From a virus, in the IMG/VR virus record IMGVR_UViG_3300028908_000030, positions 1 to 23,976 of that record: a DNA stretch of 23,976 nt; one strand, given 5' to 3'. Each line of letters opens with the position of its first letter. Within the stretch, counting starts at the first letter, position 1. The notes below the pieces were generated by a model. That model saw nothing but the letters and a program-made list of their open reading frames with translations. It was not told the DNA's origin and ran no database searches. This document shows, one piece after another, positions 1 through 23,976 of the stretch. The translations under genes were made by a program, and so were the position numbers.

Positions 1-357
1 CCCCCCACTGAAAAAATAATAAAAGCCGTGCCAAAAGATAAAAATGAGCTATATAAACCCATGCGGGCGTTGTTTGAAACATACTACAAGCGGGCGGGCG
101 GTGACGCTTATTATTGGCAAATTAAAGACAGCGTCGCACTGAAACAGATAAAAAAGAAAATAGAGTTTCTGTTTAAGCAAAAGGACAAAAAAATAACAGA
201 TACCGGAATTTTGCGTAGTTTTGAGGTAATTTTGGCACGGGGTTTGTCGGATAAGTTCATAAAGCAGAATTATACAGTTGCGATAATTAACAAACAGTTC
301 AATGTTTTGACGAAATTACGAAATACCTTTGAAACAAACGGCGGACTATGGAATTAA
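1..357 (+). CDS. C-terminal part of a probable phage replication-associated protein (5' truncated)
   Basis: The reading frame is open to base 1, so the start lies outside the window; the GTG at 28 is internal or accidental. The visible 118 residues are a basic helical domain. The last half (an aromatic patch YYWQIKD, a run of lysines, then ILRSFEVILARGLSDKFI and a final INKQFN segment) resembles the C-terminal domain (DUF7833-like) of replication proteins in Bacteroides phages and mobile elements, which usually carry an N-terminal Lin1244/Lin1753-type helix-turn-helix. Family assignment is from memory of the pattern. The stop overlaps the next gene by 10 bases, so the two are translationally coupled. 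A role in replication initiation or helicase loading is inferred from family and position only. Confidence 0.5.
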   Translation, partial: PPTEKIIKAVPKDKNELYKPMRALFETYYKRAGGDAYYWQIKDSVALKQIKKKIEFLFKQKDKKITDTGILRSFEVILARGLSDKFIKQNYTVAIINKQFNVLTKLRNTFETNGGLWN

Positions 358-914
358 TAAAATATATCGGGAAAGAAATAGACATGGCGGCAATAATTAA
401 TAACAAAAATTTGCCGGCAATTTCAAAAATAAGGAAAGAAGAGGGGGAGGCTGTGTTGCAAAATATATTAAAAATTGCAATACGGGATTTATTAACCGGG
501 TTACCGTTTGAGCTTGAGCCGGCAGGTTTAAGTAAGTTAATCCAATATATTATTGAGGATTATTATTTTTTTAAAATTGCGGACATATACGCAATATCAA
601 AACGAATTGCAAAAAAAAAGATATTCGGAAAGCTGTATATTAACGATGTTTTGGCAGAATTTGAAGCATATTCAAATGAGCGGTTACAGCTTGGGGCGGA
701 GATAAGCCGGAAAGAAGCGGCGGAGCGAAAAAAACAAATAGACCTGCTAACAGATGAGCAACTTAAAAAGCTATATAAAAAGGTCGGGGCGTCTGTTTCA
801 AAGTTGGAATATAATAAGCGATTGAGAGCGATAAACGAACAAAAGAAACGTAAATTAAAACAAATATATTATGAAAGTAGTAAAGGGAACAAAACGGGCA
901 AAAAAACAAATTGA
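348..914 (+). CDS. Unknown phage protein, DUF6633-like, probable replication module member
   Basis: This 188-residue charged protein has no signal peptide or membrane segment. The middle (about residues 65-110) contains a segment reading KIADIYAISKRIAKKKIFGK followed by a short link and an acidic, aromatic stretch LAEFEAYSNER. That resembles a segment of DUF6633-type proteins of Bacteroides phages, which often sit beside replication genes. The C-terminal third (about 115-188) is very rich in Lys, Arg, Glu and Gln and is probably a long helix or coiled coil. It overlaps the gene before it by 10 bases and the next by 44 bases in another frame. Function is not known; nucleic-acid binding is possible from the basic tail. 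Confidence 0.5.
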   Translation: MELIKYIGKEIDMAAIINNKNLPAISKIRKEEGEAVLQNILKIAIRDLLTGLPFELEPAGLSKLIQYIIEDYYFFKIADIYAISKRIAKKKIFGKLYINDVLAEFEAYSNERLQLGAEISRKEAAERKKQIDLLTDEQLKKLYKKVGASVSKLEYNKRLRAINEQKKRKLKQIYYESSKGNKTGKKTN

Positions 915-1218
915 GATAAGCGAAGCACAAAAAAATGAAATTATTGAGCTTATAAAAGAATTTTACAAAAAAAACGGATATTACGTTGCTTCGATAATGA
1001 GCGACGTCAAAAATGTTGGTTTATGGGTTTACGTATTTGTTAAACCGATTAACAACAAAATGAAAGGGGTTTACGGGCTGCCTTTTATAAATAATATCCG
1101 TTTCGATTGTGTCGGGGGGCTGTTTAGTTTAACGTTTAATTTGCCCTTGCATTCGGAAAATCACGGAATTGTAGAAACGTTTATTAATATCATGAAAGAC
1201 GTAAACAAAAAGATATAA
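871..1218 (+). CDS. Hypothetical protein, 115 aa
   Basis: I do not recognise this protein. It starts inside the 3' end of the previous gene (44-base overlap, different frame). It opens with a basic, helical first 40 residues and continues with a beta-rich part containing VGLWVYVFVKPI and GGLFSLTFNLPL, which looks like an alternating-strand domain. There is no signal peptide and there are no cysteine clusters (one Cys). The 58-base gap after it, before the methyltransferase, is the first real break in this run of genes. Coding support comes from the tight packing and from codon use like that of its neighbours. Confidence 0.55.
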   Translation: MKVVKGTKRAKKQIEISEAQKNEIIELIKEFYKKNGYYVASIMSDVKNVGLWVYVFVKPINNKMKGVYGLPFINNIRFDCVGGLFSLTFNLPLHSENHGIVETFINIMKDVNKKI

Positions 1219-1276
1219 AAAAATGGGATTTATATTGTGTTAAGCCAGGCATTTTGATAATTAAAAAAAGTAAAAT

Positions 1277-2224
1277 TTGAGTAAAAAAATAAATATATTA
1301 TCATTATTTGCGGGGATGGGAACATTAGAACTTGCGTTAATTAATCAAAATTTCGAGATTGGGAAAAGTTACGCAAGCGAAATTAAACCGTATGCAATTA
1401 AATTAATGCAACATCATTTCCCGGACACGATACAATTAGGAAATATTAATAATTGGAAAAATTGGGATATTGATTGGAAAAATATTGACTTAATCGGCAG
1501 CGGTTCACCTTGCCAGGATTTATCAATAGCAGGGAGAAGGGCAGGAATATACGGGAGTAGAAGCCGTTTATTTTTTGTTTTTGTTGAGATATTAGAGTAT
1601 GTTAAAAAATTAAATCCAGATGTTTTGTTTTTGCAGGAGAACGTTGCATCAGCACCTAAAAAAGATATAAGAATAATAAGCGAGTTTTTAGGCATATATC
1701 CTCAGCTAATTGATAGTAAATTGTGGTTGCCGCAAAGTAGAAAAAGACTATTCTGGACAAATATAAGATATAGTTATCAGGGGTTGTTTGGCGAAAAAAC
1801 AACGGATATACCTTTGCCGACAAAAAGGAAAGAAATATATGCAAAAGATATAATCACATCCGGAATAACTAAACAAAAAATATTTCCGACATTAACGGAA
1901 AGGTATGTAGCATCAAACAAGTATGAACATTCAGAAAAAAGAGATAAAAGATTAAGGATGAAAAGTGTTCCGTATGTTATAGAATTAAATAAATCAAAAG
2001 AAAGTAACGGGAAACAGCCGTTTAATCAAAATAAAGGCAATGCAAGAATTTTAAATAAAACAGAGTTATGCAGAATACAAGGTTTTCCGGATAACTATTG
2101 CGATATAGTTAGTTACAGACAAGCTGGAAGTTTACTTGGTGATGCATGGTCGTTACCGGTAGTTGAACATATCATTTCATTTATTGACAAAACAAAATTT
2201 AAAACACGAAATTTAAAGACCTAA
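1277..2224 (+). CDS. DNA (cytosine-5-)-methyltransferase
   Basis: This protein transfers a methyl group from S-adenosylmethionine to C5 of cytosine in a specific DNA site. At 315 residues it has the full C5 motif order: motif I FAGMG (11-15, SAM binding), motif IV GSPCQD with catalytic Cys79, motif VI ENV (121-123), motif VIII QSRKR (153-157), a target-recognition region roughly 165-255, motif IX around LCRIQGFPDNY (264-274), and motif X GSLLGDAWSLPV (284-295). The start must be TTG at 1277, because the first ATG (1315) would remove most of motif I. Arginine codons differ sharply from the neighbours: 15 of 17 are AGA/AGG here against 7 of 19 in the large terminase, which suggests separate acquisition. 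No cognate restriction enzyme is visible, so it probably protects phage DNA. Target site unknown. Confidence 0.95.
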   Translation: MSKKINILSLFAGMGTLELALINQNFEIGKSYASEIKPYAIKLMQHHFPDTIQLGNINNWKNWDIDWKNIDLIGSGSPCQDLSIAGRRAGIYGSRSRLFFVFVEILEYVKKLNPDVLFLQENVASAPKKDIRIISEFLGIYPQLIDSKLWLPQSRKRLFWTNIRYSYQGLFGEKTTDIPLPTKRKEIYAKDIITSGITKQKIFPTLTERYVASNKYEHSEKRDKRLRMKSVPYVIELNKSKESNGKQPFNQNKGNARILNKTELCRIQGFPDNYCDIVSYRQAGSLLGDAWSLPVVEHIISFIDKTKFKTRNLKT

Positions 2225-2234
2225 ACAAAAAGAT

Positions 2235-2585
2235 ATGAGAAACAAAGAACACAATTTACAAGCAGCTTGCGTCCGGTGGTTTCGGTATGAATACCCGAAA
2301 TTTAAAATGTTATTATATGCAATTCCAAACGGGGGCAAACGAAATATAAAAACGGCGCAATATTTGAAAGCTGAGGGGGTGGTTGCCGGCGTTGCAGATT
2401 TGTTTTTAAGTATTCCGTCGGGTGGTTTTTGTGGGTTGTATATCGAAATGAAAACCGAAACGGGGCGGCAGACTGAAAAACAAAAAGAATTTGAAAAAGA
2501 AGTAAAGGCAGCCGGGTATGATTATATTATTGTGCGAACATTTGAGGGTTTTCAGACAGCAATAAACAATTATTTGATTTTTTAA
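2235..2585 (+). CDS. VRR-NUC domain nuclease
   Basis: This 116-residue single-domain protein of the PD-(D/E)xK superfamily is the small stand-alone VRR-NUC form common in phages. Visible signatures are the N-terminal helix with EHNLQAACVRWF, the PNGG turn (31-34), GVVAGVADLFL carrying the likely metal ligand Asp55, and YIEMK giving Glu71 and Lys73, followed by a Gln-containing helix (QKEFEKE). These fit catalytic D-ExK geometry. VRR-NUC proteins act on branched DNA or Holliday-junction-like structures; in phages they are inferred to process replication or recombination intermediates before packaging. It starts 10 bases after the methyltransferase. The neighbour is not proof of a restriction-modification pair: VRR-NUC proteins of this size are frequent in phages without a methyltransferase. 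Confidence 0.9.
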   Translation: MRNKEHNLQAACVRWFRYEYPKFKMLLYAIPNGGKRNIKTAQYLKAEGVVAGVADLFLSIPSGGFCGLYIEMKTETGRQTEKQKEFEKEVKAAGYDYIIVRTFEGFQTAINNYLIF

Positions 2586-2586
2586 A

Positions 2587-2601
2587 TGGCACGATTTTTG
2601 A
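2587..2601 (+). promoter_or_regulatory. Candidate promoter motif, copy 1 (TGGCAC-N5-TTGA)
   Basis: TGGCAC at 2587-2592 is followed by GATTT and TTGA, directly after the VRR-NUC stop and 15 bases before the next ATG. A near copy sits at 4090-4104 in the same context. The right half (GATTTTTG) is one mismatch from the Bacteroidota -7 element TAnnTTTG. The whole also resembles a sigma-54 -24/-12 pair, but it lacks the GC at -12. Promoter function is inferred. Confidence 0.35.
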
Positions 2602-2616
2602 AATTAAAAAATTACT

Positions 2617-2886
2617 ATGGATATATACAGAGAATTAATAGAGAATAAATTGCCACCTGAGCATGAATTGCTCATGCGGTTTGAGCAAAGAAAAGCAATC
2701 CCATTTGAAGTAATCGGGGATAGTTTTTCAATTAACGGATTGTTAACGGGAGAGGTTAAGGTTGCAAAAGGCAACCGAATAACCCCCGATTATAAAGAGG
2801 TGGTAAATGTTTCATTTATTGGGCGGGTTTATAATGAGAGCGGCAAAGAAGTTGACATGGTTATTTATCGTAATTTAGAAATATAA
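2617..2886 (+). CDS. Hypothetical protein, 89 aa
   Basis: I do not recognise this small acidic protein. The first 28 residues look helical and charged (ELIENKLPPEHELLMRFEQR). The rest looks like a compact beta domain, with alternating hydrophobics in FEVIGDSFSINGLLTGEVKV and VVNVSFIGRVYNESGKEVDM. It has no Cys, membrane segment or signal peptide. It lies just downstream of a candidate promoter motif at 2587-2601 and is followed by a gene with a strong Shine-Dalgarno sequence, so it may begin a new transcript. Confidence 0.55.
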   Translation: MDIYRELIENKLPPEHELLMRFEQRKAIPFEVIGDSFSINGLLTGEVKVAKGNRITPDYKEVVNVSFIGRVYNESGKEVDMVIYRNLEI

Positions 2887-2893
2887 AGGAGGT
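2887..2893 (+). promoter_or_regulatory. Strong Shine-Dalgarno site for the gene at 2900
   Basis: AGGAGGT lies six bases before the ATG at 2900. Most genes in the window have no such element, as expected for a Bacteroidota host, so this is one of only four clear cases (with 3295, 6803 and 15539). Confidence 0.7.
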
Positions 2894-2899
2894 TTTAAA

Positions 2900-3109
2900 A
2901 TGGCAAAAGCAGTAATTTACAGCGGTCAAAAAGTACATTACACGGAATTTGACGGGAGCTATCAAAACGGAATAGTTAAGGGAGTAGCAGCCGACGGCAA
3001 GCATGCGTGGGTTGTTTACAAGTGTGGGGGAGATTGGGAGAATTACAAAAATTATACGGGGGTACGAACCGCAATAAACGAATTAAGGGGGGGTTGGCGT
3101 CATGATTAG
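2900..3109 (+). CDS. Small SH3/KOW-like phage protein
   Basis: This 69-residue protein reads as a small all-beta barrel: GQKVHYTEFDGSYQNGIVKG is the typical SH3/KOW-like first hairpin. It is followed by HAWVVYKCGGDWENYKNYTG, which matches a widespread phage family of small hypothetical proteins with a conserved W-x-N-Y-x-x-Y-T signature. These are thought to be Tudor/SH3-like; their partner is unknown. Translation is favoured by a strong Shine-Dalgarno site. The stop overlaps the next start by 8 bases. Likely an early host-takeover or DNA-associated protein, but that is inference. Confidence 0.7.
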   Translation: MAKAVIYSGQKVHYTEFDGSYQNGIVKGVAADGKHAWVVYKCGGDWENYKNYTGVRTAINELRGGWRHD

Positions 3110-3305
3110 TTTACTGTTAAAATATCAATTTAAAAGGCTGGAGCGTTTATTGAATAAACATTACGGGTTTCCGATAGATTTTGAGTTAAGAACAAACGGG
3201 GATAATACAACCATGTGGGTATTAAATTCCAATGATGTTGCAATGGAAATTGATTTTAAAACCCCCAAAGAAGTGAAAAAATATCTTAAAAAAAAGGAGG
3301 TTTAA
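3102..3305 (+). CDS. Hypothetical protein, 67 aa
   Basis: I do not recognise this small basic protein. It has an amphipathic N-terminal helix (LLLKYQFKRLERLLNKHYG) and a short acidic/beta middle, and ends in a Lys-rich tail. It overlaps the gene before it by 8 bases. Its last codons contain the Shine-Dalgarno sequence (3295-3301) of the next gene, so the two genes are tightly coupled. Confidence 0.55.
   Translation: MISLLLKYQFKRLERLLNKHYGFPIDFELRTNGDNTTMWVLNSNDVAMEIDFKTPKEVKKYLKKKEV
3295..3301 (+). promoter_or_regulatory. Strong Shine-Dalgarno site for the gene at 3306
   Basis: AGGAGGT lies inside the last codons of the gene ending at 3305, with four bases to the ATG at 3306. It is one of the few clear Shine-Dalgarno sites in this window. 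Confidence 0.7.
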
Positions 3306-3662
3306 ATGGTATATGTAACTAACATATTCGGATTTACAGCGACAAAAGAAATAAAAGTAATTTACGAAAGTAAAAAATACAATATTGCTCATGTTGTCAG
3401 TGATTGGGGCGGGCAAAAATTTGAATATTTGGCGGTATATGATGATAATGGAATTGTTAATTTTAAAAACATAAATGAAGTTACCATGCCAGGACATTCA
3501 ATTGATATAAAAGATTATATCGATGACGATTTGGAGCAAGTAAGCCCCGAACTTTTAAAGGACTATACAGAACAGGCAAGTTATCTTAAAATCAATTTAT
3601 TTACGGTTTTTGAAATAGCAGAGACCATGAAAAGATTAGACAACCATTTTTTAATTGATTAG
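3306..3662 (+). CDS. Hypothetical protein, 118 aa
   Basis: I do not recognise this acidic protein. The first 60 residues look like a beta domain (KEIKVIYESKKYNIAHVVSD, then FEYLAVYDDNGIVNFKNINE). The second half is more helical and acidic (IDDDLEQVSPELLKDY). There are no membrane segments and no cysteines. It is preceded by a strong Shine-Dalgarno site and followed after one base by the NinB-like gene, so it belongs to the same operon. Confidence 0.55.
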   Translation: MVYVTNIFGFTATKEIKVIYESKKYNIAHVVSDWGGQKFEYLAVYDDNGIVNFKNINEVTMPGHSIDIKDYIDDDLEQVSPELLKDYTEQASYLKINLFTVFEIAETMKRLDNHFLID

Positions 3663-3663
3663 C

Positions 3664-4086
3664 ATGAAATTAATTGAGTACGGGACAATATCAAACGGCA
3701 AGTTAACATTAAACAACAAAAGATTGTTTGAGCGAACCATAAAGGACATCCAGCACATGCCCGTCGTTGTGACAATTGAGAAAAGGGAAAAAAAGCGGTC
3801 GGTATGGCAAAATAGGTATTATTGGGGGGTTGTTGTTCCGATTGTTCAAAAGGGCTTGACAGATGTAGGATATGAAGGACTGACAAAGGAAGATGTACAT
3901 GAGTATTTAAAAGAAACTTTCAATAAAAAAACATTTGTAAATAATGAAACGGGCGAATATATTACAGTACCGGAAAGCACTACAAATTTAAGTACATACG
4001 ATTTTATGCAATATTATAAGAAAATTCAAAAATGGGGGGACGAATATCTTAATGTTTACATCCCCGACCCCGACCCCGAATATTAA
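3664..4086 (+). CDS. NinB-like recombination-associated phage protein
   Basis: I chose the ATG at 3664, one base after the previous stop, rather than the in-frame TTG at 3655 that lies inside that gene; this gives 140 residues. The core RSVWQNRYYWGVVVP and the segments EDVHEYLKETFNKK, NNETGEYITVPESTTNLST and YLNVYIPDP match a family common in Bacteroidota phages that resembles lambda NinB (single-strand DNA binding, recombination mediator). Hallmarks are RSxxQNxYYWG in the first half, a T-rich strand, then a tryptophan-containing helix and a final IPDP. The NinB link is by pattern and is not certain. The neighbouring VRR-NUC and winged-helix genes fit a recombination or replication role. Confidence 0.55.
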   Translation: MKLIEYGTISNGKLTLNNKRLFERTIKDIQHMPVVVTIEKREKKRSVWQNRYYWGVVVPIVQKGLTDVGYEGLTKEDVHEYLKETFNKKTFVNNETGEYITVPESTTNLSTYDFMQYYKKIQKWGDEYLNVYIPDPDPEY

Positions 4087-4089
4087 AAA

Positions 4090-4104
4090 TGGCACAATAT
4101 TTGA
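4090..4104 (+). promoter_or_regulatory. Candidate promoter motif, copy 2 (TGGCAC-N5-TTGA)
   Basis: TGGCAC at 4090-4095, then AATAT and TTGA, lies just after the NinB-like stop and 24 bases before the ATG at 4129. It repeats the 2587-2601 motif: the shared form is AAATGGCACrATwTTTGA. AATATTTG is one mismatch from the Bacteroidota -7 element TAnnTTTG. Promoter function is inferred. Confidence 0.35.
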
Positions 4105-4128
4105 TAACAAGCAAAATAAAAAACAAAA

Positions 4129-4815
4129 ATGATAACATTATTTGAAAATTACACAGAGCCGTTAACCGAAGCAGAAAAGGAAACGGCAATTTATCTTTAC
4201 ATGGTATTAACTTATAACCCACAAACCGCAAAAAATTTAGTTAACCGATTACAAAAAATTGTTGATAACAAAGCAATTAAATTAAAGTTAAATATTAGGC
4301 GTATTCGCAAGATGGTTAATTATTTGCGCCAAAATGGTTTTATTGTGATTGCTACTGAAAAGGGTTATTTTATAACCGATGACCGGTTGATAATTAGAAA
4401 ACAAATTTTATCATTATTGGAGCGGTCGGGAGCTATCAAAACAGCCGCAAACGGTTTGATAAATTCATACAACGAAAAATATAAAGATGACAATTTTTTT
4501 AAACAGCCGACGTGGTTGTTTTGGGGGGGCGGCTGGAACTTTGGCGACAAAGTAACGCCTGAAGTGGTTAAATATATTGAATCGGTCGAAGTAACAAGCG
4601 AACGGGAGGCATATATTTTAATGCTGTTTATTACAAAGGTATATCCGAATTATGACATTAAGAGTAAAAACGGCACGCATGAGGTTGTTTTGAACAAAAC
4701 TAATAAGCCGGGCAATACTGCAACGATTTTAAAAGCTATGTTGAGAAACGAGAGTTTAACAAAGTTTTTGAATCATGAGCAGGATAAAATAAAAGTAATT
4801 TATCAAAAAAAATAA
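4129..4815 (+). CDS. Winged-helix DNA-binding phage protein
   Basis: The protein has 228 residues. Residues about 8-100 read as a winged helix: an N-terminal TEAEKETAIYLYMVL helix, then KLNIRRIRKMVNYLRQNGF as the recognition-helix region, then IATEKGYFITDD as the wing. This arrangement (recognition helix followed by GYF) occurs in many small phage DNA-binding proteins near replication or regulation genes. Residues 125-228 are different: a Trp/Gly-rich patch (PTWLFWGGGWNFGDK) and a charged, mixed C-terminal region that I cannot place. It follows a candidate promoter motif, so it may begin a transcript. A regulator of middle genes is a reasonable guess but is not shown. Confidence 0.6.
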   Translation: MITLFENYTEPLTEAEKETAIYLYMVLTYNPQTAKNLVNRLQKIVDNKAIKLKLNIRRIRKMVNYLRQNGFIVIATEKGYFITDDRLIIRKQILSLLERSGAIKTAANGLINSYNEKYKDDNFFKQPTWLFWGGGWNFGDKVTPEVVKYIESVEVTSEREAYILMLFITKVYPNYDIKSKNGTHEVVLNKTNKPGNTATILKAMLRNESLTKFLNHEQDKIKVIYQKK

Positions 4816-4839
4816 TTATTAATTTAATATTTTACAGTT

Positions 4840-5130
4840 ATGAAAGCAAACAAAGTTATGTTTAAAAGGTTGTATAATTTAGGAGATTATCAACATGCCG
4901 AAATCGGCATCGAATTGTTTATTGAACCCGGAGAAAAAGCCGTCGATGTACTTAAACAAGCGGTTGATTTTGTTGAAAAATTTAACCCCACAAACCCGAA
5001 AGCAAAACGAATAAAAGAAATAAACGAAATATTGAGCAATCCTGAAAACTATAATTACGGGGTTGTAGAAGCAGCAAAAACGGAATTAAAAAATATTAAC
5101 AACGAACTAAACAACGACATGCCATTTTAA
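4840..5130 (+). CDS. Phage accessory protein with an SSB-like C-terminal tip
   Basis: The 96-residue protein begins with a short strand pair, VMFKRLYNLGDYQHAEIGIE, typical of a small phage family with the pattern K-x-x-R-x-x-N-L-G-x-Y-x-x-x-x-I followed by an acidic strand and a helix (AVDVLKQAVDFVEKFNP). Its end, NNELNNDMPF, closely resembles the acidic tip of bacterial SSB (DDDIPF or DDLPF), the peptide by which SSB recruits DNA repair and replication proteins. The rest does not read as an OB fold, so this is probably not an SSB. It is followed two bases later by the next gene. Confidence 0.6.
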   Translation: MKANKVMFKRLYNLGDYQHAEIGIELFIEPGEKAVDVLKQAVDFVEKFNPTNPKAKRIKEINEILSNPENYNYGVVEAAKTELKNINNELNNDMPF

Positions 5131-5132
5131 AA

Positions 5133-5411
5133 ATGAATTACAAAGGGTTTAAATATCAGTTGTACAAAGTTGCAGACAATCAATATTTTTTGAGCTTGCA
5201 AAACGGCAATATGTTTGAAATTCGGACGTATGTTAAACGGGTTATTTATGAAAAGATAGACAAAAACCCCCCGAATAAAAAATATAAAATATTGCTTGCA
5301 GATTTGCCGAAGCCGGCACAACGTTACATTTTTGGATTGATAAAACAAAACAAACGAACGTTTGATATTTTGCAGCAAAAAAAGAAAGGGATGTTTAAAA
5401 AATGGTTTTAA
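5133..5411 (+). CDS. Hypothetical protein, 92 aa
   Basis: I do not recognise this basic, Lys- and aromatic-rich protein. It has alternating hydrophobics in the first half (FKYQLYKVADNQYFLSLQNG) and a helical C-terminus that ends in KKKGMFKKWF. There are no cysteines or membrane segments. It sits two bases after the previous stop and overlaps the ASCH gene by 10 bases, so it is part of the same operon. Confidence 0.55.
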   Translation: MNYKGFKYQLYKVADNQYFLSLQNGNMFEIRTYVKRVIYEKIDKNPPNKKYKILLADLPKPAQRYIFGLIKQNKRTFDILQQKKKGMFKKWF

Positions 5412-5815
5412 AGTTGACATTAAAAAAAATATGGTTTGATTTAATTTTTGCCGGGTTTAAGCGGGAGGAATATAGAGAGATAAAACCATATTGGTTTAAC
5501 CGAATCATGGAGCATTACGGGGATGGGCTTGAGGACACAGTAGAGAGAATATGTAAAGCATACCAAAACCCTAAAAAATTCGGGTATGCTTCAATTTTTG
5601 ATATTAATGAATTTAATGAAATTGCCCCGAAAGGGTACAAGTATATTCATTTTTTTAATGGGGGGCATTTTTCAAACAAATTGCCACAATTTAAAATTGA
5701 GTTGTTAAATATTGACATCCGGAAAGGCGTAAAAGTATGGGGCGCAGACCCCGATAAAATATATTTTGTGTTTGAACTTGGGAAAATTACGGATGTAAAA
5801 AATTGTAATTTATGA
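5402..5815 (+). CDS. ASCH domain protein
   Basis: This 137-residue protein fits the PUA-like ASCH fold. It has a start KLTLKKIWFDLIFAGFKREE followed by YREIKPYW, the classic ASCH opening (a strand, an L-x-L helix with the basic E-x-R/K loop). A later strand reads FFNGGHFSNKLPQFKIELLNIDI, and the close is WGADPDKIYFVFELGKI. Known ASCH proteins bind RNA or act as nucleotide or acetylcytidine hydrolases; phage copies of this length are common and mostly uncharacterised. The Lys/Glu/Tyr/Arg cluster near residues 20-27 is where the binding groove should lie. It overlaps its upstream neighbour by 10 bases and the downstream one by 4 bases. Confidence 0.75.
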   Translation: MVLKLTLKKIWFDLIFAGFKREEYREIKPYWFNRIMEHYGDGLEDTVERICKAYQNPKKFGYASIFDINEFNEIAPKGYKYIHFFNGGHFSNKLPQFKIELLNIDIRKGVKVWGADPDKIYFVFELGKITDVKNCNL

Positions 5816-6268: not shown

Positions 6269-6285
6269 ATATAAAAAATTTTTGT

Positions 6286-6293
6286 TATATTTG
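6286..6293 (+). promoter_or_regulatory. Bacteroidota-type -7 promoter element before the sigma gene
   Basis: TATATTTG fits the Bacteroidota primary-sigma -7 element TAnnTTTG exactly. I see no clean -33 TTTG at the expected distance, only a T-rich stretch. By the usual spacing transcription would begin near 6298-6300, that is, at or next to the ATG at 6300, so the message may be leaderless or nearly so. Confidence 0.55.
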
Positions 6294-6299
6294 TGCACT

Positions 6300-6776
6300 A
6301 TGAAAGTCAAAGACGTTTATCAGTATCGGGGCAAAATGCAGGATATTGCGAAATATTTCGGCGCAACGGAGCAAGAAGCGGAGGACATTGCGCAAGAAGC
6401 ATTTTTAAAGCTGTATAAGATACAGCAAAAAGAGGGCAATTTAAACCGGCTTGAATATAACAACAAAATAAACATGGTTTACCTGTTTAACATGGTGCGA
6501 AATATAACAATATCCGTACACCGGAAACGAATAGAAACGCAGGAACTAACAGCGCATGATATATCAATAAGCGATGATTTTGATAAGCGGGAGCGGCTGG
6601 CAGAAGTTAAAGAGATATTAAGCACCATGCCCCCATTTTACCGGATGTTATATGAAGCATATTACAATGATGATATATCGTTGAGGAAGTTATCAAAAGA
6701 AACAAATGTTTCATTAACAACGTTATATTACGCAATAAAGTACATAAAAAAATATGTATCAGAGCGGCTGGCATAA
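6300..6776 (+). CDS. Phage RNA polymerase sigma factor (ECF-like, sigma-70 family)
   Basis: From the ATG at 6300 the protein has 158 residues, the size of a minimal sigma with regions 2 and 4 only. Residues 26-42 (EAEDIAQEAFLKLYK) are region 2.1/2.2. NMVYLFNMVRNITISVHRKR (58-77) is the region 2.3/2.4 area that melts and reads the -10. A short acidic linker follows. Residues 102-158 (VKEILSTMPPFYRMLYEAYY, then ISLRKLSKETNVSLTTLYYA) form the region 4 helix-turn-helix. An in-frame TTG at 6282 lies inside the promoter and was rejected. Related sigma genes occur in Bacteroidota phages near late genes. Its position directly before the terminase and virion genes suggests that it redirects host RNA polymerase to late promoters. 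Confidence 0.85.
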   Translation: MKVKDVYQYRGKMQDIAKYFGATEQEAEDIAQEAFLKLYKIQQKEGNLNRLEYNNKINMVYLFNMVRNITISVHRKRIETQELTAHDISISDDFDKRERLAEVKEILSTMPPFYRMLYEAYYNDDISLRKLSKETNVSLTTLYYAIKYIKKYVSERLA

Positions 6777-8233: not shown

Positions 8234-8278
8234 ACTGTGAATTGCTTTCATTTTGTATTTTTAAAAACACAGAAAAAA

Positions 8279-9079
8279 ATGGGGTTAAATAGCAAAATTG
8301 GGTGGACGAATCACACCGTAAATTTGTGGGTTGGCTGTTCAAAGTATAACAGGGCTTGTTATAATTGTTATGCTGAACAATTTGCGAACCGGTTCAATAT
8401 TAAGGTATGGGGCAACAATAAGCCCCGCCAAATTGTGAAAACAGCAACCAAAACCCTGCGCAAAATACAAAGGAGATTAACCGGCACAAATACAAAGGAA
8501 CTTGTTTTTGTTGGCAGTCTCATGGACATATTCGAGACCGGAAAACCGGTTGTCGTTGACGGCAAAATACAAACGGGCTTATCTACATACGATTTACGGC
8601 GGTATTTTTTCGATGATGTTGAATTGGGTTTATATCCAAATTTGATATTTTTATTATTGACAAAACGCCCCCACCTTATAAGGAACTACATCCCGAAAAG
8701 TTGGTTAACAAACCCGCCGCAAAATGTTTGGATTGGGGCGTCGGCGTTTGATGAGTTTTCAGTACAAACAGCCGTTGACACATTAAAGCATCATTGGAGC
8801 GGCAAACGATTTTTAAGCATTGAGCCGCAATTGAAAAAAATCGAAACAATGAGCCTTGCCGGTATTGATTGGGTTGTAACGGGGTGCGAATCGGGAGCAA
8901 ACAGACGCCCGTATTCTAATCTGTGGGCAAATGAAATTGTTAATATTTGCCGGGAGCAAAACGTCCCCGTTTTTGTTAAGCAGATACGGGGCAAAAAAAA
9001 CGAAGTTATTACGGATGTTAATGATTTTGAAATAAATTTGCAAGTACAGGAATACCCGGCAGAATTTGAAAAAAATTAG
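8279..9079 (+). CDS. DUF5131 family protein (phage Gp37/Gp68), probable iron-sulfur protein
   Basis: I chose the ATG at 8279 (266 residues), not the in-frame GTG at 8237, because DUF5131 proteins begin close to the IGWTNHTVNLW segment. The signature follows at once: WVGCSKYNRACYNCYAE, giving Cys20, Cys27 and Cys30 (C-x6-C-x2-C), as in radical-SAM-like proteins. Further matches are VFVGSLMDIFE (near 80-90), LLLTKRPH (near 124-131), VWIGASAFDE, RFLSIEPQLKKI, IDWVVTGCESG and VPVFVKQIRGKK, which are the usual DUF5131 strand and loop motifs (TIM-barrel-like). The family is widespread in phages and mobile elements; its reaction is unknown. It is placed between the sigma factor and the terminase, like a moron gene, and is not needed for virion assembly as far as known. 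Confidence 0.85.
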   Translation: MGLNSKIGWTNHTVNLWVGCSKYNRACYNCYAEQFANRFNIKVWGNNKPRQIVKTATKTLRKIQRRLTGTNTKELVFVGSLMDIFETGKPVVVDGKIQTGLSTYDLRRYFFDDVELGLYPNLIFLLLTKRPHLIRNYIPKSWLTNPPQNVWIGASAFDEFSVQTAVDTLKHHWSGKRFLSIEPQLKKIETMSLAGIDWVVTGCESGANRRPYSNLWANEIVNICREQNVPVFVKQIRGKKNEVITDVNDFEINLQVQEYPAEFEKN

Positions 9080-9971: not shown

Positions 9972-11279
9972 ATGAATTTACAATTGAATTTGCAGCCGAA
10001 GCAGTTAGAAGCCGCCAAATTTTGGATTGATAAAACGACGCAGGAGATTTTGTATGGTGGAGCAAAGGGCGGCGGTAAATCGTATTTAGGTGCGGCGTTA
10101 ATCTTTTCAGATGCTTTATTATATCCAGGAACTCATTATTTTATTGCCAGGCACAATTTAAACGACCTAAAGAAATATACAACGCCAACCATTTACGAAG
10201 TTTTAAAAAAAATGGGGGTTGATTATTCGCATTACGTAACATTTAACGGGCAAGATAATTATTTTGAGCTGTATAATAATTCACGAGTTTATTATATTGA
10301 TTGCCGATATTTACCGTCAGACCCCGATTTCCACCGGTTTGGAAGTTTGCAATTTACGAGGGGGTGGTTTGAAGAGGTCGGACAAATTAATAACAAAGCG
10401 ATTGAGAATTTAGGCGTTGCGGTCGGGCGGTGGCTTAATAATGAGTACGGATTGACACGGAAAATACTTTATACTTGCAACCCTAACAAGGGGTTTGCAT
10501 ATTCAGAATTTTACCTGAAGCACAAAAAAAACGAATTGCCGGAATATCGAAAATTTATAACTGCCTTGCCGACCGAAAACAAATACCTGCCGGCTGAATA
10601 TATTGAAGCCCTTGAAAGATTGCAAGGGGCGCAAAAGGAGAGGTTAAGGTTTGGGAATTGGGAATATGACGACGACCCGACCCGGCTAATATCAGATACA
10701 AGTATTAATAATTTATTTAGCAATACATTTGTAAAAGCGTCGGGGCGTTTTTTTATCGTTGCGGATGTTGCCCGGTTTGGGGCTGACAGTTCAATAATAA
10801 CCGTTTGGGATGGGTTGCGGCTGGTTGATTATGTTAGATTGGACACATCGAAAACAACAAAAGTTGTAAATATCATAAATTCATACAGAACAAAATACGG
10901 AGTACAATTGTCGAATATATTAGTTGATGAGGATGGCGTTGGCGGCGGGGTGGTTGATATGTTAGGCTGTTATGGATTTGTCGCAAACAGTAAGCCGGAT
11001 AACCCGAATTATAAAAATTTAAAAGCTGAATGCGGGTACAAATTAGGGGAGGTCGTTGATGATATTTGGATAAAAGCAGAATTGGAGAGCAACGACAAAG
11101 AGAAAATTATTCAGGAGCTTGCATATTTAAAAGCGTACGACATTGACAAAGATATGAAATTGCAAATATTACCAAAAACAAAAATTAAAGAAAAGTTGGG
11201 GCGTTCACCTGATTGGCTTGATATATTTATCATGCGTATGTATTTTGAAATTTTTATTACGCAATATGCAATACAATAA
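9972..11279 (+). CDS. terL: Terminase large subunit (packaging ATPase and nuclease)
   Basis: This is the 435-residue motor that pumps DNA into the prohead and cuts it. The ATPase Walker A is GGAKGGGKS (29-37), Walker B is WFEEVGQ (132-138, Glu134/135), and the coupling motif III is TCNPN (168-172). The RNase H-like nuclease domain begins near 255 with FIVADVARFGADSS (Asp265). The second acidic site is LVDEDGVGGG (Asp319, Glu320, Asp321) and the third is SPDWLDIFIMR (Asp414/Asp417). All key residues are present, so it should be active. Length is usual for the family. The next genes are neck and tail genes rather than the portal, which is unusual. Motif calls are by eye but clear. Confidence 0.95.
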   Translation: MNLQLNLQPKQLEAAKFWIDKTTQEILYGGAKGGGKSYLGAALIFSDALLYPGTHYFIARHNLNDLKKYTTPTIYEVLKKMGVDYSHYVTFNGQDNYFELYNNSRVYYIDCRYLPSDPDFHRFGSLQFTRGWFEEVGQINNKAIENLGVAVGRWLNNEYGLTRKILYTCNPNKGFAYSEFYLKHKKNELPEYRKFITALPTENKYLPAEYIEALERLQGAQKERLRFGNWEYDDDPTRLISDTSINNLFSNTFVKASGRFFIVADVARFGADSSIITVWDGLRLVDYVRLDTSKTTKVVNIINSYRTKYGVQLSNILVDEDGVGGGVVDMLGCYGFVANSKPDNPNYKNLKAECGYKLGEVVDDIWIKAELESNDKEKIIQELAYLKAYDIDKDMKLQILPKTKIKEKLGRSPDWLDIFIMRMYFEIFITQYAIQ

Positions 11280-18330: not shown

Positions 18331-18360
18331 CGTTTTTTTATAAACAAAAATATCTTAAAA

Positions 18361-18984
18361 ATGAAAAAATTAAATATTTTCAAAGTCAAAATTAAAGACA
18401 AAAACCAACATGGCGTTAATGCAATTTCACTTGTATCATCGCCAGCAATTAATATTGACTTTATAACCCTTGCGAAGCAAAAGGGGCAAAAAGTCATGGC
18501 GTTAAGTTCTGACAAAGATAAAAAATTGATTGTCGGGGCTGTATTAGTTCCGAACCGGTTAATATATCGCAGATTGAACGGCGAGGAATTTTATATTACT
18601 TTTGACAAGCAGACCATCCGGCAAAGTGCTGAATTGTTCTTAAAAAAGAATAAGCAAAAAAATATAACCCTTGAGCATGACGGGAAAGTTGGGGGCGTTA
18701 CGGTGGTTGAAAGCTGGATTGTTGAGAACAGCAAGACGGATAAATCGGCGTTGTATAACTTGAGTTTGCCGGCTGGTAGCTGGTGCGTAGTCATGAAAGT
18801 TGACAATGACGAACTTTGGAAAGCCTTAAAAAATGATAAAAAATTTAAAGGGTTTTCGATTGAGGGGCATTTCATGCCGGAGCTGAAAAAAATAAAACCA
18901 GGAAAAGAAAAGAAAAATAAAAAAATCAAAATTGAAAAAAGAAAAGTAAGTTTAATAAAGGCACTTTTGGAGCTTGTAAAATAA
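18361..18984 (+). CDS. XkdF-like prohead serine protease
   Basis: The protein has 207 residues. The family signs are LIVGAVLVPNRLIYR followed by an EEFYITFDKQTIRQSAE segment, TLEHDGKVGGVTVVESWIVE, then GSWCVVMKVDNDELWKALK and KGFSIEGHF. The likely catalytic pair is His106 (in LEHDG) and Ser166 (in GFSIEG), as in the S78-like XkdF group. The function is to cut scaffold or capsid N-termini during head maturation. The C-terminus (about 175-207) is Lys-rich. In Bacteroidota phages the XkdF protein often carries an extra C-terminal beta domain; here that domain appears on the next gene (MCP) instead. The order protease then MCP is normal. Confidence 0.85.
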   Translation: MKKLNIFKVKIKDKNQHGVNAISLVSSPAINIDFITLAKQKGQKVMALSSDKDKKLIVGAVLVPNRLIYRRLNGEEFYITFDKQTIRQSAELFLKKNKQKNITLEHDGKVGGVTVVESWIVENSKTDKSALYNLSLPAGSWCVVMKVDNDELWKALKNDKKFKGFSIEGHFMPELKKIKPGKEKKNKKIKIEKRKVSLIKALLELVK

Positions 18985-19014
18985 ATTTACAACAAACAAA
19001 AATTCAGAGCGTTT

Positions 19015-19022
19015 TACTTTTG
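19015..19022 (+). promoter_or_regulatory. Candidate -7 promoter element before the capsid gene
   Basis: TACTTTTG fits the Bacteroidota -7 element TAnnTTTG and lies in the 72-base gap before the MCP start, with a predicted leader of about 30 bases. The -33 region has only a weak TTTAC at a poor distance. A separate promoter for the most abundant virion protein would make sense, and a terminator follows the gene. Inferred only. Confidence 0.4.
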
Positions 19023-19056
19023 AAAAAATTAAAGTTTAATTTTAAAATTATTAAAA

Positions 19057-20511
19057 ATGGATTACAAAGCAATTTTAAAAGCGATTAAAAAAATATTATT
19101 AAGCACTGAAGGAATAAAACTTGCAAGTGCTAAAGCTGGAGACGTAACATTTTTTGCGGACGCCTTTGAAGTCGGTCAACCCGTTTTTGTTCAAAATGAA
19201 GACGGGGAATATGAACCAGCACCGGCAGGCACATATTCACTTGACAACGGCATAACAATTGTAATTGACGAGAGCGGCGTAATTACAGAAGTTACAAAAG
19301 AGGGAGCAGAACCGGAAAAAATGGGGTTGTCTAAAAAGCAAAAAAAGGAGTTTTACAAACTCATTAAAGAAGTGCAGGAGAAGCTGACAAAGCAGAGCCA
19401 AACACAGAAAAAGAACAAAAAACCAGCCGGAGACCCGCCCAAAAAAGGCAAAACAAAATTAAACAAACAAAACCCGGTTGAAGTACCCCGCATGCGTAGT
19501 CAAATGACAATGCATGAAAGAATTGCGCTTGCAATGCAGCAAACGCCAATGTACACCGATGTAAAGCTGGCAACACAAACCAACATTACAACAACGTACG
19601 CAGGAGAGTTTGCCGGGCAGTATATTGCAGCCGCAATTTTGCAAGGAAACACACTTGGGAAAGAGACCATAACAGTAAAACCGAACGTCAAGCACAAATT
19701 AGTGTTGAAAAAGGTTGACATTTCGGACATTATCGCAGCCGGTACATGTGATTTCACACCTACCGGAACAATTGATTTAACGGAAGCAATTTTGCAGCCC
19801 GAAGAAATGCAGGTCAACCTTGAACTTTGTAAAAAGGATTTTAGGGGCGATTGGGAAGCGGTACAAATGGGTTACGGAGCGTTTGACGTATTGCCCCCGA
19901 ACTTTACGGCGTTTTTGCTTCAAAGAATTGCAGAGCTTGTTAATGAAAGCATGGAGGTTGCTGTTTGGACTTGGGATAAATCCCAAAACGGACAATATTT
20001 TGACGGGCTGTTTAGGCGCATGAAAATCGGAGCACAAGATGGGGCAAAAAATGTTGAAGGCGACCCGATTACAAAGGATAACGTCCTTGACGCCTTTGAA
20101 TCTGTTTTAGCTGAAGCACCTGCCGCAGTTGTAGAAAAACCGGATTTTAAATTTTGGGTAACGGCAAAAGTGGCAAAAGCATACAGACGGGCGTTGGGTG
20201 GTTTTGGTACAAATGGCATGGGAGCAGCCGGAGTAAACGGCAGGGGCATGCTTGGTAGTTTACCGCTTGATTATTCGGGTTACCCGATTGAAGTAATCGG
20301 AGCGACCTCAAACCATGCGATTGTAGCCGGACAAAAAAGTAACCTGTTTTTCGGTACGGGTTTAAAATCCGACCTTAACGAGGTCAAAATTTTGGATATG
20401 GCAGAACTTGACGGCAGTGATAACGTTAGAGTTGTAATGCGTTTTACAGGAGATACTCAGGTGGTATATCCTAATGAGGTCGCAATTTATACAGAAACGA
20501 GCCAACAGTAA
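19057..20511 (+). CDS. Major capsid protein with N-terminal scaffold-like domain
   Basis: The 484-residue protein has two parts. Residues 1-140 are not capsid-like: a small beta domain at about 22-80 (FADAFEVGQPVFVQNEDG, then AGTYSLDNGITIVIDESGVI), then a Lys/Glu-rich helix and a basic Pro-rich strip at about 95-140. From about 150 the pattern is that of the HK97-type capsid, with MTMHERIALAMQQTPMYTDV, ITTTYAGEFAGQYIAAAILQ, a middle with many strands, FKFWVTAKVAKAYRRALGGF, and a final DNVRVVMRFTGDTQVVYPNE. The N-terminal part probably acts as a delta-like scaffold and is cut off by the XkdF-like protease encoded just before it; the site is not visible. A terminator follows. The MCP identity rests on context and pattern. 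Confidence 0.85.
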   Translation: MDYKAILKAIKKILLSTEGIKLASAKAGDVTFFADAFEVGQPVFVQNEDGEYEPAPAGTYSLDNGITIVIDESGVITEVTKEGAEPEKMGLSKKQKKEFYKLIKEVQEKLTKQSQTQKKNKKPAGDPPKKGKTKLNKQNPVEVPRMRSQMTMHERIALAMQQTPMYTDVKLATQTNITTTYAGEFAGQYIAAAILQGNTLGKETITVKPNVKHKLVLKKVDISDIIAAGTCDFTPTGTIDLTEAILQPEEMQVNLELCKKDFRGDWEAVQMGYGAFDVLPPNFTAFLLQRIAELVNESMEVAVWTWDKSQNGQYFDGLFRRMKIGAQDGAKNVEGDPITKDNVLDAFESVLAEAPAAVVEKPDFKFWVTAKVAKAYRRALGGFGTNGMGAAGVNGRGMLGSLPLDYSGYPIEVIGATSNHAIVAGQKSNLFFGTGLKSDLNEVKILDMAELDGSDNVRVVMRFTGDTQVVYPNEVAIYTETSQQ

Positions 20512-20518
20512 AAAAACC

Positions 20519-20550
20519 GGTCGGGGTTGATTAAACGCCCCGACCTTTTT
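20519..20550 (+). terminator. Rho-independent terminator after the capsid gene
   Basis: GGTCGGGG (20519-20526) pairs perfectly with CCCCGACC (20538-20545), with an 11-base loop and five T right after. It is just downstream of the MCP stop. The stem is GC-rich in AT-rich DNA, so chance is unlikely. Confidence 0.9.
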
Positions 20551-20592
20551 AAATTTAAAGTTAGTATTGTGATAACTTAAAAAAATAAAAAA

Positions 20593-21141
20593 ATGGCATG
20601 CGAATTAACAAAAGGACGTTTTGAACCCTGTAAGGAATTTATCGGGGGCGTTAAAAAATTTTGGTTGTTGCCAATTGTAAGCGGCAAGCCGCTAACAATT
20701 TCAAAATCAAAAAAAGAAATTGAAGATATTACAACCGACGGCAATGGAGTAACTTTTTATGAATATCTGACAAATAAAGGCAACGGGATTGAGGAAACGG
20801 CAAATGTAAGCAGCGACAACGGAACAGTTTTCTATACCATTTCGGGAACTTTGACATTGCGGGGGCTGGATGCAGATATGCAAGAGGAGATTGATAGAAT
20901 CGCACGGGCAAATGTTGCATTATTTGTTATGACAAATGATAATAAAATATTTGTTTACGGGATAAACGGTGGACTTGATATTGCGCCGAAAGGCAGCACC
21001 GGAACAGCAAAAGGAGATTTGCAAGGTTATACGTTAGCAGTAAGCGGGGAGGATGTTGAAAGCGCATATACTTGCGGCGTAAGCAACGATGGGCGACCCG
21101 ATTTAACAACTAAACCGACATTCATCACCGGTGGTAATTGA
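20593..21141 (+). CDS. Major tail tube protein
   Basis: The 182-residue protein opens with MACELTKGRFEPCKEFIGGV, the N-terminus seen in tail tube proteins of many Bacteroidota siphoviruses. Then follow KKFWLLPIVSGKPLTISKS, a middle YEYLTNKGNGIEETANVSSD, DNGTVFYTISGTLTLRGLDA, IARANVALFVMTNDNKIFVY and the GTAKGDLQGYTLAVSGEDVE strand-turn near the end. It stacks into the tail tube that carries DNA. In most phages this gene lies close to the tail chaperones; here it sits between the MCP and the portal, alone between two terminators, which suggests its own transcript. A weak -7 like TAGTATTG lies at 20562-20569. Confidence 0.8.
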   Translation: MACELTKGRFEPCKEFIGGVKKFWLLPIVSGKPLTISKSKKEIEDITTDGNGVTFYEYLTNKGNGIEETANVSSDNGTVFYTISGTLTLRGLDADMQEEIDRIARANVALFVMTNDNKIFVYGINGGLDIAPKGSTGTAKGDLQGYTLAVSGEDVESAYTCGVSNDGRPDLTTKPTFITGGN

Positions 21142-21165
21142 AATAAATATATATAAAAAATAATT

Positions 21166-21200
21166 AAAAGGCAGTATTTTTTAATATTGCCTTTTTTTTT
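21166..21200 (+). terminator. Rho-independent terminator after the tail tube gene
   Basis: The stem AAGGCAGTATT (21168-21178) pairs with AATATTGCCTT (21183-21193) with one G-T pair and a T-only loop. It is part of a run ending in nine T (21192-21200). The first and last bases extend the stem as A-T pairs. It lies 24 bases after the tail tube stop. Confidence 0.9.
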
Positions 21201-21245
21201 GATACAAAAATTAAAATTATACGTTTTATTATAAACGTTGCAAAA

Positions 21246-21596
21246 ATGATTATTTTAAACTCAAACAATACGACGCATGCGATTGAAGTATATACATTAA
21301 AACCCGAATTGGGGCAATACAAAATGATTTTGTACGATGAGGAGACCCGCAAAGAAACGGAACATATTATTGAAAATCAAACGTATGACAGCGAAAAGGG
21401 TACATTTACATTTGTGGTTGAAACGTTGGAGCTAAAAAATGAGCGGTTTTATGATTATTTGTTAACGGTTGATGATGTTGTTTTTAAAAACGGAAAAATA
21501 TTTGCAACAAATAAGGAATTAACGGACTATGACATGTTAAGCGATAAGTATATAATTAAAATTTCAAAAAATGGAGAATACGTCGTTAAAGAATAA
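21246..21596 (+). CDS. Hypothetical protein before the portal, 116 aa
   Basis: I do not know the function. It is acidic and beta-rich: AIEVYTLKPELGQYKMILYD, KGTFTFVVETLELKNERFYD, YLLTVDDVVFKNGKIFATN. Similar small beta proteins sit next to the portal or tail genes in several Bacteroidota phages, where they are uncharacterised. It ends 26 bases inside the portal gene in another frame, so it is co-translated with it. It may be a minor virion part or an assembly factor. It lies after a terminator, so a promoter is expected between 21201 and 21245, but I see no clear -7 element there. Confidence 0.6.
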   Translation: MIILNSNNTTHAIEVYTLKPELGQYKMILYDEETRKETEHIIENQTYDSEKGTFTFVVETLELKNERFYDYLLTVDDVVFKNGKIFATNKELTDYDMLSDKYIIKISKNGEYVVKE

Positions 21597-23340
21597 TATC
21601 CCGATTTTTATAGATTTGTCGAAAATTGAAATCCCGGAAGCGATAGAAGCGGCGGGGCGTAAATGGGTGGAGTATGGAAAGAATAATAACTATTTTGAAT
21701 TTTTGCAGGATATTGCAACATACAGCCCAACACATTCAACAATTGTACGGCGCATGTCGGCAATGATAGCAGGCGGCGGGCTGGAATCAAAAAACCCGGC
21801 GGCGGCACAAATAATAAAAGACCTTTTTAAATTTGATGATTTAAAGCGGGTTGCGTATGATTTGAAAGTATATGGTTTCGGAATTTATTTGATAACAATG
21901 ACGGACACCTTGCAAGATATTTTCAAAATTGAACATACACCGGTTGAAAATTGGCGGTTGTCAAAAATGAACGAAGACGGAGAGATTGAAGGGGCTTATT
22001 TTTCTAATAATTGGGCGGAAAAATACAAGCCGCAAAACAAGCCGGTATTTTACCCGGTTTTTGATAAGGAAAACCCTGCGCCCGTGTCTGTATTGTTTGT
22101 GAAACCTTATCAGAGCGGCAAAACATACTATACAACACCGGATTACAGCGCATGCATACCACATGCACAAATTGAAAAGGAGCTTTCGCAGTTCCATTTA
22201 TCAAATATTGAAAACGGTTTTGTTGCGGGGCATATAATTAACTTTAACAACGGAATCCCGTCCGACACCGACCAGCGGAAAATCGAGAGAAAAATTCGTA
22301 ACAAATTTACGGGTACGAGTAACGCAGGGCGTATAATTGTATCATTCAATCAGAACAAAGAAAAGGAGGCGACAATTCGGGCAATTGAAACAGACAACCT
22401 GCATGAACAGTTTCAATATGTTGAGAAGTACGCAAAAGAAAATATATTTATTGCGCACAATGTTACAAGCCCGTTACTTTTTGGAATCCGGGATAAATCG
22501 GGTTTAGGTAACAATGCAAACGAATTGAAAGAGGCATGGTATCTTTTGCAAGCAACCGTATTAGATGATTTTCAAAGTGAAATTATTAACGCAATCAAAA
22601 TTATATTTGAATTTTTAAACATTGAAAGCCCCGACCTTTTTATAGACAGTAATAAAGTATTTGAAAAATTATTACAGTCAGAAGCGGGGGCAAATTCGGG
22701 CAAAACTCAATTATCAAAAGTACCGAAAAAAAAGATTGAGAGAGCAGCAAAATTAATTGACAAGTTTATAAGCAAGTACGGGGAGGATGAGAACTTAACG
22801 GACTTTGAAATAATTGATATAAGGGAGGCGGATTACGATAATGAAGATAATTTTTTATCGAATATTGAAACGTTAAACCTGTCACTTGCAAGAGTTCCGA
22901 AAAGCAGCCCGGCGAAAAAATCCGAAGTTGATACCGATTTGTTTAAGGTGCGATACAAGTACGCACCCGACATCATACAAAAAGACAGCCGGATATTTTG
23001 CAAAAAAATGATTAAAGCCGGGAAAATATACAGAAAAGAAGACATAATAAAACTGAAAGATGAGCCGGTTAATCCCGGATTTGGGGAATACGGAGCAGAT
23101 ACGTACGACATTTGGAAATATAAAGGCGGGGCGCAATGCAAACATATATGGCAACGGGTTGTTTATTTGCGACGGAATAACAAAAAAATCAGTGTTAACG
23201 AAGCCCGTAGAATTATTGTAAATTTGCCGGTATCGGAGCGCAAGGGGGCAAAGTGGGAGGTTAACCCTATTGAAGTCGCTAAACGCCCGTTTGACATGCC
23301 AAAACGGGGCTGGTTGCACCCCCCCAAATGGTTAAAATAA
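21571..23340 (+). CDS. Portal protein with C-terminal extra domain
   Basis: This is a 589-residue protein. The portal part (about 1-400) has VEYGKNNNYFEFLQDIATYS, PTHSTIVRRMSAMIAGGGLE (the entry motif of portal proteins), DLKVYGFGIYLITMTD, then FHLSNIENGFVAGHIINFNN and NVTSPLLFGIRDKSGLGNNA, all typical. From about 456 a second domain follows: LFKVRYKYAPDIIQKDSRIF, CKKMIKAGKIYRKEDI, NPGFGEYGADTYDIWKYKGG and AQCKHIWQRVVYLRR. That pattern (SRxFCxxM, VNPGFG, YDxWxYKGGxxCxHxWxR) is an extra C-terminal domain seen on portals of many Bacteroidota phages, with Cys/His residues that may bind metal; it resembles a MuF-like head-morphogenesis part. The portal forms the DNA gate and joins capsid to neck. 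Confidence 0.85.
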   Translation: MENTSLKNNIPIFIDLSKIEIPEAIEAAGRKWVEYGKNNNYFEFLQDIATYSPTHSTIVRRMSAMIAGGGLESKNPAAAQIIKDLFKFDDLKRVAYDLKVYGFGIYLITMTDTLQDIFKIEHTPVENWRLSKMNEDGEIEGAYFSNNWAEKYKPQNKPVFYPVFDKENPAPVSVLFVKPYQSGKTYYTTPDYSACIPHAQIEKELSQFHLSNIENGFVAGHIINFNNGIPSDTDQRKIERKIRNKFTGTSNAGRIIVSFNQNKEKEATIRAIETDNLHEQFQYVEKYAKENIFIAHNVTSPLLFGIRDKSGLGNNANELKEAWYLLQATVLDDFQSEIINAIKIIFEFLNIESPDLFIDSNKVFEKLLQSEAGANSGKTQLSKVPKKKIERAAKLIDKFISKYGEDENLTDFEIIDIREADYDNEDNFLSNIETLNLSLARVPKSSPAKKSEVDTDLFKVRYKYAPDIIQKDSRIFCKKMIKAGKIYRKEDIIKLKDEPVNPGFGEYGADTYDIWKYKGGAQCKHIWQRVVYLRRNNKKISVNEARRIIVNLPVSERKGAKWEVNPIEVAKRPFDMPKRGWLHPPKWLK

Positions 23341-23354
23341 AAAAAGGTTGAAAT

Positions 23355-23864
23355 ATGGATGTATTACTTATTAATAGGGATGATATAATGAAGTTAACGG
23401 GAGTTAACGGAAATATTGATTTTGATAAAATCATGCCGCATGTAAAAACGGCGCAGGATGTTTATTTGCGCCAAAAAATCGGGCTGAAATTACTTAACAA
23501 ATTAAAGGACTTAGTCGAAAGCGGAGACATTAACAAACCAGCTTTTGAAGACTACAAAAAGCTGTTAGATGAGCATATTACGCCTACTTTAGTTTTTACA
23601 GTTATGGTTGATTTTTTGCCGTTTTTGAGCTATGAAACAGCAAACGGGGGGACGTTTCAAAATGACGGGCAAAATGCAACACCGGTTAACGTTGAGATTT
23701 TAGACCGGCAAATAAAAAAATATGCTGACTATTCGCACCGGTACGGGCAAATTATGATAGATTACATATATAATAATCGGGGTAAATATCCTGAATATTT
23801 TGAAGGCACAAAAATAGAACAAAAAGCAAACGGGGATGAGCCTTTCGTCGGTTGGGTACTTTAA
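23355..23864 (+). CDS. Putative head-tail connector (DUF6712-like)
   Basis: The 169-residue protein is mostly helical: LLINRDDIMKLTGVNGNIDF, IMPHVKTAQDVYLRQKIG, LLNKLKDLVESGDINKPAFE, then LDEHITPTLVFTVMVDFLPF and a C-terminal helix RQIKKYADYSHRYGQIMIDY. The opening (DI..., then I-x-x-A-Q-x-x-x-L/I) is that of head-tail connector proteins of the DUF6712 or gp6 type. It lies 14 bases after the portal, where a connector is expected. The family is inferred from pattern and place. No cysteines and no membrane segments. Confidence 0.65.
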   Translation: MDVLLINRDDIMKLTGVNGNIDFDKIMPHVKTAQDVYLRQKIGLKLLNKLKDLVESGDINKPAFEDYKKLLDEHITPTLVFTVMVDFLPFLSYETANGGTFQNDGQNATPVNVEILDRQIKKYADYSHRYGQIMIDYIYNNRGKYPEYFEGTKIEQKANGDEPFVGWVL

Positions 23865-23876
23865 AATGTTGATAGT

Positions 23877-23976
23877 ATGAAATACAAAGTAAAAGAAAAG
23901 AATATTATCAAATTAAAAAAATACCTTGCGAAAAGGGATAAACAAATAACTTTGAAAAAATCAAAGAAACCAAAAA
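23877..23976 (+). CDS. Start of a small Lys-rich protein (3' truncated)
   Basis: An open frame starts at the ATG 13 bases after the connector stop and runs off the window edge. The 33 visible residues (MKYKVKEKNIIKLKKYLAKR, then Lys-rich) are too short to identify. A nearer ATG at 23865 closes after four codons and is not used. Confidence 0.4.
   Translation, partial: MKYKVKEKNIIKLKKYLAKRDKQITLKKSKKPK

Follow-up and report, generated by a model that had tools for sequence, protein, structure and literature searches.

Recognition sequences of at least seven restriction enzyme specificities are entirely absent from the window analyzed here, the whole 23,976-base stretch of DNA, which comprises an entire, linear virus record and is probably a fragment of a larger phage genome. 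We consider it likely, with a probability of roughly 0.87, that host Type II restriction enzymes selected for the loss of these sites in a phage of Bacteroidota, and the losses were made by synonymous recoding that left the encoded proteins unchanged.

The window reads as part of a tailed phage. It carries 37 genes, all on one strand, and 96% of it is coding. Recognizable products include the terminase large subunit (9972–11279, plus strand), the portal protein (21571–23340, plus strand), a head protease, a NinB-like protein and a putative capsid protein (19057–20511, plus strand), the last being the probable major capsid protein from its position and its relation to a hypothetical protein of Nonlabens phage P12024. 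A C5-cytosine DNA methyltransferase (1277–2224, plus strand) is adjoined by a VRR-NUC domain protein (2235–2585, plus strand), and genes similar to the latter are annotated in phi18:1 and P12024S. There is also an ECF-like sigma factor gene (6282–6776), which has relatives at about 20 of the loci compared, and a DUF5131 (Gp37/Gp68, radical-SAM-like) gene (8237–9079) that matches two candidate defence models of PADLOC, PDC-M41B and PDC-M30B, and is carried by phages whose hosts differ greatly. Neither an integrase nor a dedicated anti-restriction protein was recognized among the scanned proteins of this genome fragment.

The terminase served as the query for relatives and for codon comparison. 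Most of its relatives are phages that infect Flavobacterium, Cellulophaga, Polaribacter or Bacteroides, those of the portal and capsid proteins are the Nonlabens phages P12024S/L, and contigs with a related terminase are nearly all from Bacteroidota, so the host is very likely a member of this phylum. The best terminase matches are 62–64% identical, with the terminase the only gene in common with the window, and at this distance the age of the site loss cannot be dated. One relative (L003) has an in-frame stop within its terminase reading frame (3992–5269; 63% identical).

The initial annotation, made by reading the window, reported that GATC, GGCC, CTAG and CGCG appeared to be missing, and a computed count gives zero copies of each. 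A first-order Markov model predicts 31.9, 54.0, 18.7 and 64.8 copies, respectively, and a second-order model 33.5, 50.2, 6.2 and 30.2. Proteins and codon usage were held constant in a third null model, in which synonymous codons were shuffled 1000 times, giving means of 34.2 (GATC), 30.4 (GGCC), 8.7 (CTAG) and 26.0 (CGCG) and minima of 19, 18, 1 and 13; none of the 1000 shuffles reached zero. Summed over the four tetramers, about 120 copies are expected under the second-order model and about 99 by codon shuffling. Neither several copies of GATC or GGCC nor a second-order expectation near zero was seen, either of which would have spoken against the claim. CTAG, for which the models give expectations between 6 and 19, had rightly been singled out as the weakest of the four, its second-order expectation being only 6.

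Other palindromic tetramers are plentiful, as had also been noted: CCGG occurs 129 times, GCGC 33, GTAC 57, CATG 89, AGCT 46 and TGCA 107, and TCGA (27) and ACGT (55) are present too. The first six, along with the AT-rich palindromes, are at or near expectation, and the base-matched counterparts of two missing words (CCGG for GGCC, GCGC for CGCG) are abundant. It is very improbable that the absences stem from base composition, from codon usage or from the protein sequences. Although the skew of the plus strand (A 37.7%, C 14.4%) lowers some expectations, such as that of CTAG under the second-order model, all three null models expect dozens of GATC, GGCC and CGCG and no codon shuffle gave zero, which rules out composition or codon usage and agrees with the earlier reading. 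CCGG itself exceeds expectation, with 125 copies in coding sequence against 77 by codon shuffle, an excess shared by five terminase relatives (L002–L004, L014 and L016) and by several cultured Bacteroides phages.

The four tetramers are an incomplete list, as at least four more motifs are at zero. Counts of all 617 distinct recognition sites (Biopython enzyme list), set against those in simulated sequences, showed that loss was also complete for CCNNGG (0 vs 50 expected), GGNNCC (0 vs 38) and GGWCC (0 vs 15). AAGCTT (0 vs 9), GTMKAC (0 vs 9), CATATG (0 vs 7), TTCGAA, RGCGCY and CTRYAG are likewise absent, with 5 to 11 copies expected, and the absence of some of these hexamers may be due to chance, single missing 6-bp palindromes being weak observations when 64 such palindromes are tested. 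In a stepwise search, where each new motif was judged against simulated sequences already lacking the earlier ones, 11 motifs were found at zero, including CCNNGG, GGCC, GATC, CGCG, GGNNCC, GGNCC, AAGCTT and CTAG, while three second-order null sequences put through the same search gave none. Site losses are present in both halves of the window. With site avoidance defined as an observed/expected ratio below 0.1 at an expectation of at least 15, GATC, GGCC, CGCG, CCNNGG and GGNNCC all qualify (0 copies, second-order expectation 30–50), and CTAG (6–19) and AAGCTT (9) have expectations too low or borderline for so strict a definition; these are Markov and codon-shuffle expectations and not those of the compositional-bias formula of PMC6286503. 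The strongly depleted absent words are all palindromes that match known enzyme specificities, so the suggestion that the lost words are sites of known Type II enzymes was borne out by the 617-site count.

The traces of recoding are visible at the codon level. Before a codon starting with C, aspartate is encoded by GAC 25 times and never by GAT, whereas elsewhere GAT predominates (247 of 394, with 147 GAC). Isoleucine following a G-ending codon uses ATC in 0 of 92 cases, compared with 65 of 558 elsewhere, and only AGC and AGT encode serine after NGA. The terminase genes of three relatives carry 5 to 8 GATC each, and at the ten of these sites where the amino acids match, the window has a synonymous codon (for example, GAT CCT is replaced by GAC CCC). 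As the zero counts stand against shuffles that preserve the proteins, and synonymous swaps are seen at the terminase sites, recoding proceeded without protein change. The same evidence bears on the least probable of the alternatives, an assembly or library artefact such as digestion of the DNA before sequencing. The record is a fragment from a collection of uncultured viruses, which might raise that concern, but the contig is continuous and 96% coding, its motifs were swapped for synonymous codons and not deleted, and cultured phages show the same pattern.

An enzyme cannot cut a genome that lacks its recognition site. We propose that the phage meets several orthodox Type II restriction enzymes in its Bacteroidota hosts, and that point mutation and selection would purge the GATC, GGCC, CGCG, CTAG, GGWCC/GGNCC, GGNNCC, CCNNGG and AAGCTT sites, with a few more hexamers probably removed in the same way. 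Type II restriction had been put forward as the cause from the outset, and it is supported by the loss of palindromic enzyme sites through recoding and by the occurrence of the enzyme families in sampled Bacteroidota. No other process known to us would eliminate unrelated Type II palindromes in such numbers and so completely, which makes restriction as the selecting agent a strong inference. A mechanism other than restriction is unlikely, be it methyl-directed mismatch repair with nicks at GATC, mutation at methylated cytosines, instability of CTAG or a site-specific nuclease encoded by the phage, whose sites its own genome would have to lack. CTAG is low in related prophages too (pooled observed/expected ratio of 0.25), so that its loss may have a partly general cause, and the methyltransferase and VRR-NUC genes do lie side by side. 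However, none of these mechanisms would remove GATC, GGCC, CGCG, CCNNGG, GGNNCC and AAGCTT together, mutation bias leads to depletion and not to zero, and VRR-NUC proteins occur in phages that retain the sites, for example phi18:1 (202 GATC, 66 GGCC). The VRR-NUC protein appears to be an ordinary phage nuclease, with no sign of its being a restriction partner.

To return to selection by host enzymes, families with specificities matching six of the lost motifs were surveyed in 198 sampled Bacteroidota genomes. MjaI-type enzymes were found in 28 genomes, TdeIII in 14, DpnII in five, Eco47II in four, ThaI in three, NgoBV in two, and HaeIII and NgoPII in one each. We take the sites of these families to be CTAG (MjaI), GGNCC (TdeIII, Eco47II), GATC (DpnII), CGCG (ThaI), GGNNCC (NgoBV) and GGCC (HaeIII, NgoPII), and that of HpaII to be CCGG. 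HpaII is present in 5 of the 198 genomes, the same number as DpnII, though its site is retained in the window, and ranking motifs by the frequency of enzyme families in the phylum did not separate lost from kept sites.

The methyltransferase (PF00145, phrog_116) has intact catalytic motifs, PCQ (residue 78), ENV (121) and QSRKR (153), and its nearest solved structures are the catalytic domains of DNMT3B/3A, followed by M.HhaI and M.HaeIII, all with weak similarity. Possibly, it forms a second anti-restriction layer, covering a further motif that the phage has retained. Of 38 methyltransferase carriers, 4 have GCGC depleted, vs 22 of 61 terminase relatives, and CATG and CTAG are the most frequent losses among the carriers. 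GCGC was considered as the methyltransferase target from a search for motifs that are never lost in the carriers, and was dropped because RGCGCY is absent in the window.

Two non-palindromic words are missing from one strand only. GATTC does not occur on the plus strand (13 expected by codon shuffle, 10 by the second-order model) while its complement GAATC occurs 15 times, and CTTAC is likewise absent (15 and 9 expected) with GTAAG present 10 times. ACTGG/CCAGT is missing in both orientations, with about 20 expected by codon shuffle. In Type III evasion of the T7/EcoP15I type, a non-palindromic site is kept in one orientation only, and the GATTC and CTTAC pattern resembles this; as proof of such evasion, the asymmetry was rejected, being marginal after multiple testing of hundreds of words. 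Together with these two weakly supported one-strand losses, the complete removal of CCNNGG (SecI/BsaJI type) is among the less usual features of the window. It is a rather doubtful proposition that CCNNGG and the one-orientation words GATTC and CTTAC were all removed by restriction and that the absent words are a record of host range pointing to Bacteroidales, and, to our knowledge, little has been described in Bacteroidota of SecI/BsaJI-type enzymes or of Type III-like enzymes acting at GATTC or CTTAC. If true, the list of absent words would be a readable account of that host range.

To place the window among its relatives, a fixed list of 28 palindromic motifs was counted over 12 kb in 84 related viral contigs, each 11.5 kb or longer. 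The fixed list was used for the ranking since stepwise counts repeat overlapping motifs at some loci (e.g. L174 and L075). No motif was wholly missing in 16 contigs, one in 23, two in 13, three in 17, four in seven and five in eight; counted in the same way, the window lacks four in one half and five in the other. The initial annotation missed that comparable phage contigs commonly show such total loss. The sets of lost sites vary between related phages, as would be expected if their host enzymes differ. In one related contig (L079, 1–15373), GATC, GGCC, CGCG, CCGG and CATG are all absent and GCGC is reduced to 4 copies against 76 expected (first-order model). Among 19 prophage loci, 16 have no total loss and three have one, and this near-absence of total losses matches the published contrast in site avoidance between temperate and non-temperate phages, avoidance being strongest in the latter (PMC6286503).

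The window shows, in a clean and extreme form, how a phage can escape restriction through its sequence alone, and one uncultured contig is enough to read off which words are missing. Should the missing words be a fingerprint of the enzymes of the host, they could be of use in assigning hosts to uncultured phages, and a small comparison does separate cultured Bacteroides phages from marine flavobacterial phages by their missing words. Several of the former lose GATC, GGCC or CTAG and most retain CCGG, although three other Bacteroides phages lack the GATC and CTAG loss. Most of the marine flavobacterial phages lose GGCC, several lose CCGG and none loses GATC entirely, a pattern (GATC mostly kept, CCGG often lost) opposite to that of the window.

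The nearest match in profile is Bacteroides phage Versailles (ON453897, host Bacteroides caecimuris), a 50 kb genome with nearly the same missing set (observed/expected: GATC 0/152, GGCC 0/153, CTAG 0/91, CGCG 1/54, GGWCC 1/41, GGNNCC 5/120 and CATATG 0/18) and with CCGG retained, as in the window. Its terminase is 43.5% identical to that of the window. Unlike the window, CCNNGG is only halved in Versailles (59/124), and it carries an integrase, yet is purged of sites. As each side of the comparison comprises about five or six phages, the Versailles profile and the flavobacterial contrast are a hint, not proof, of a host in Bacteroidales. Fewer motifs than in the window are lost in crAss001 (GATC 0/158, GGCC 0/49, CTAG 2/270), Bacteroides phage BU2-2 (GATC 0/77, CTAG 1/94, GGCC 8/106, CGCG retained), Staphylococcus phage K (GATC 0/112) and T7 (GATC 6/141, AAGCTT 0/21, CGCG retained).

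Searching the literature for restriction-site avoidance in phages of Bacteroidetes gave no results. Avoidance of Type II sites is already a known strategy of phages in general, and Rusinov et al. (2018, PMC6286503) report complete or almost complete elimination for roughly a tenth of viral genomes. The window resembles the cases in that study in the near-complete elimination of palindromic Type II sites from a tailed phage, and differs in that a single fragment has at least seven specificities at exactly zero, the degenerate CCNNGG and GGNNCC among them. It thus represents an ordinary strategy in extreme form, unusually broad yet not unique.
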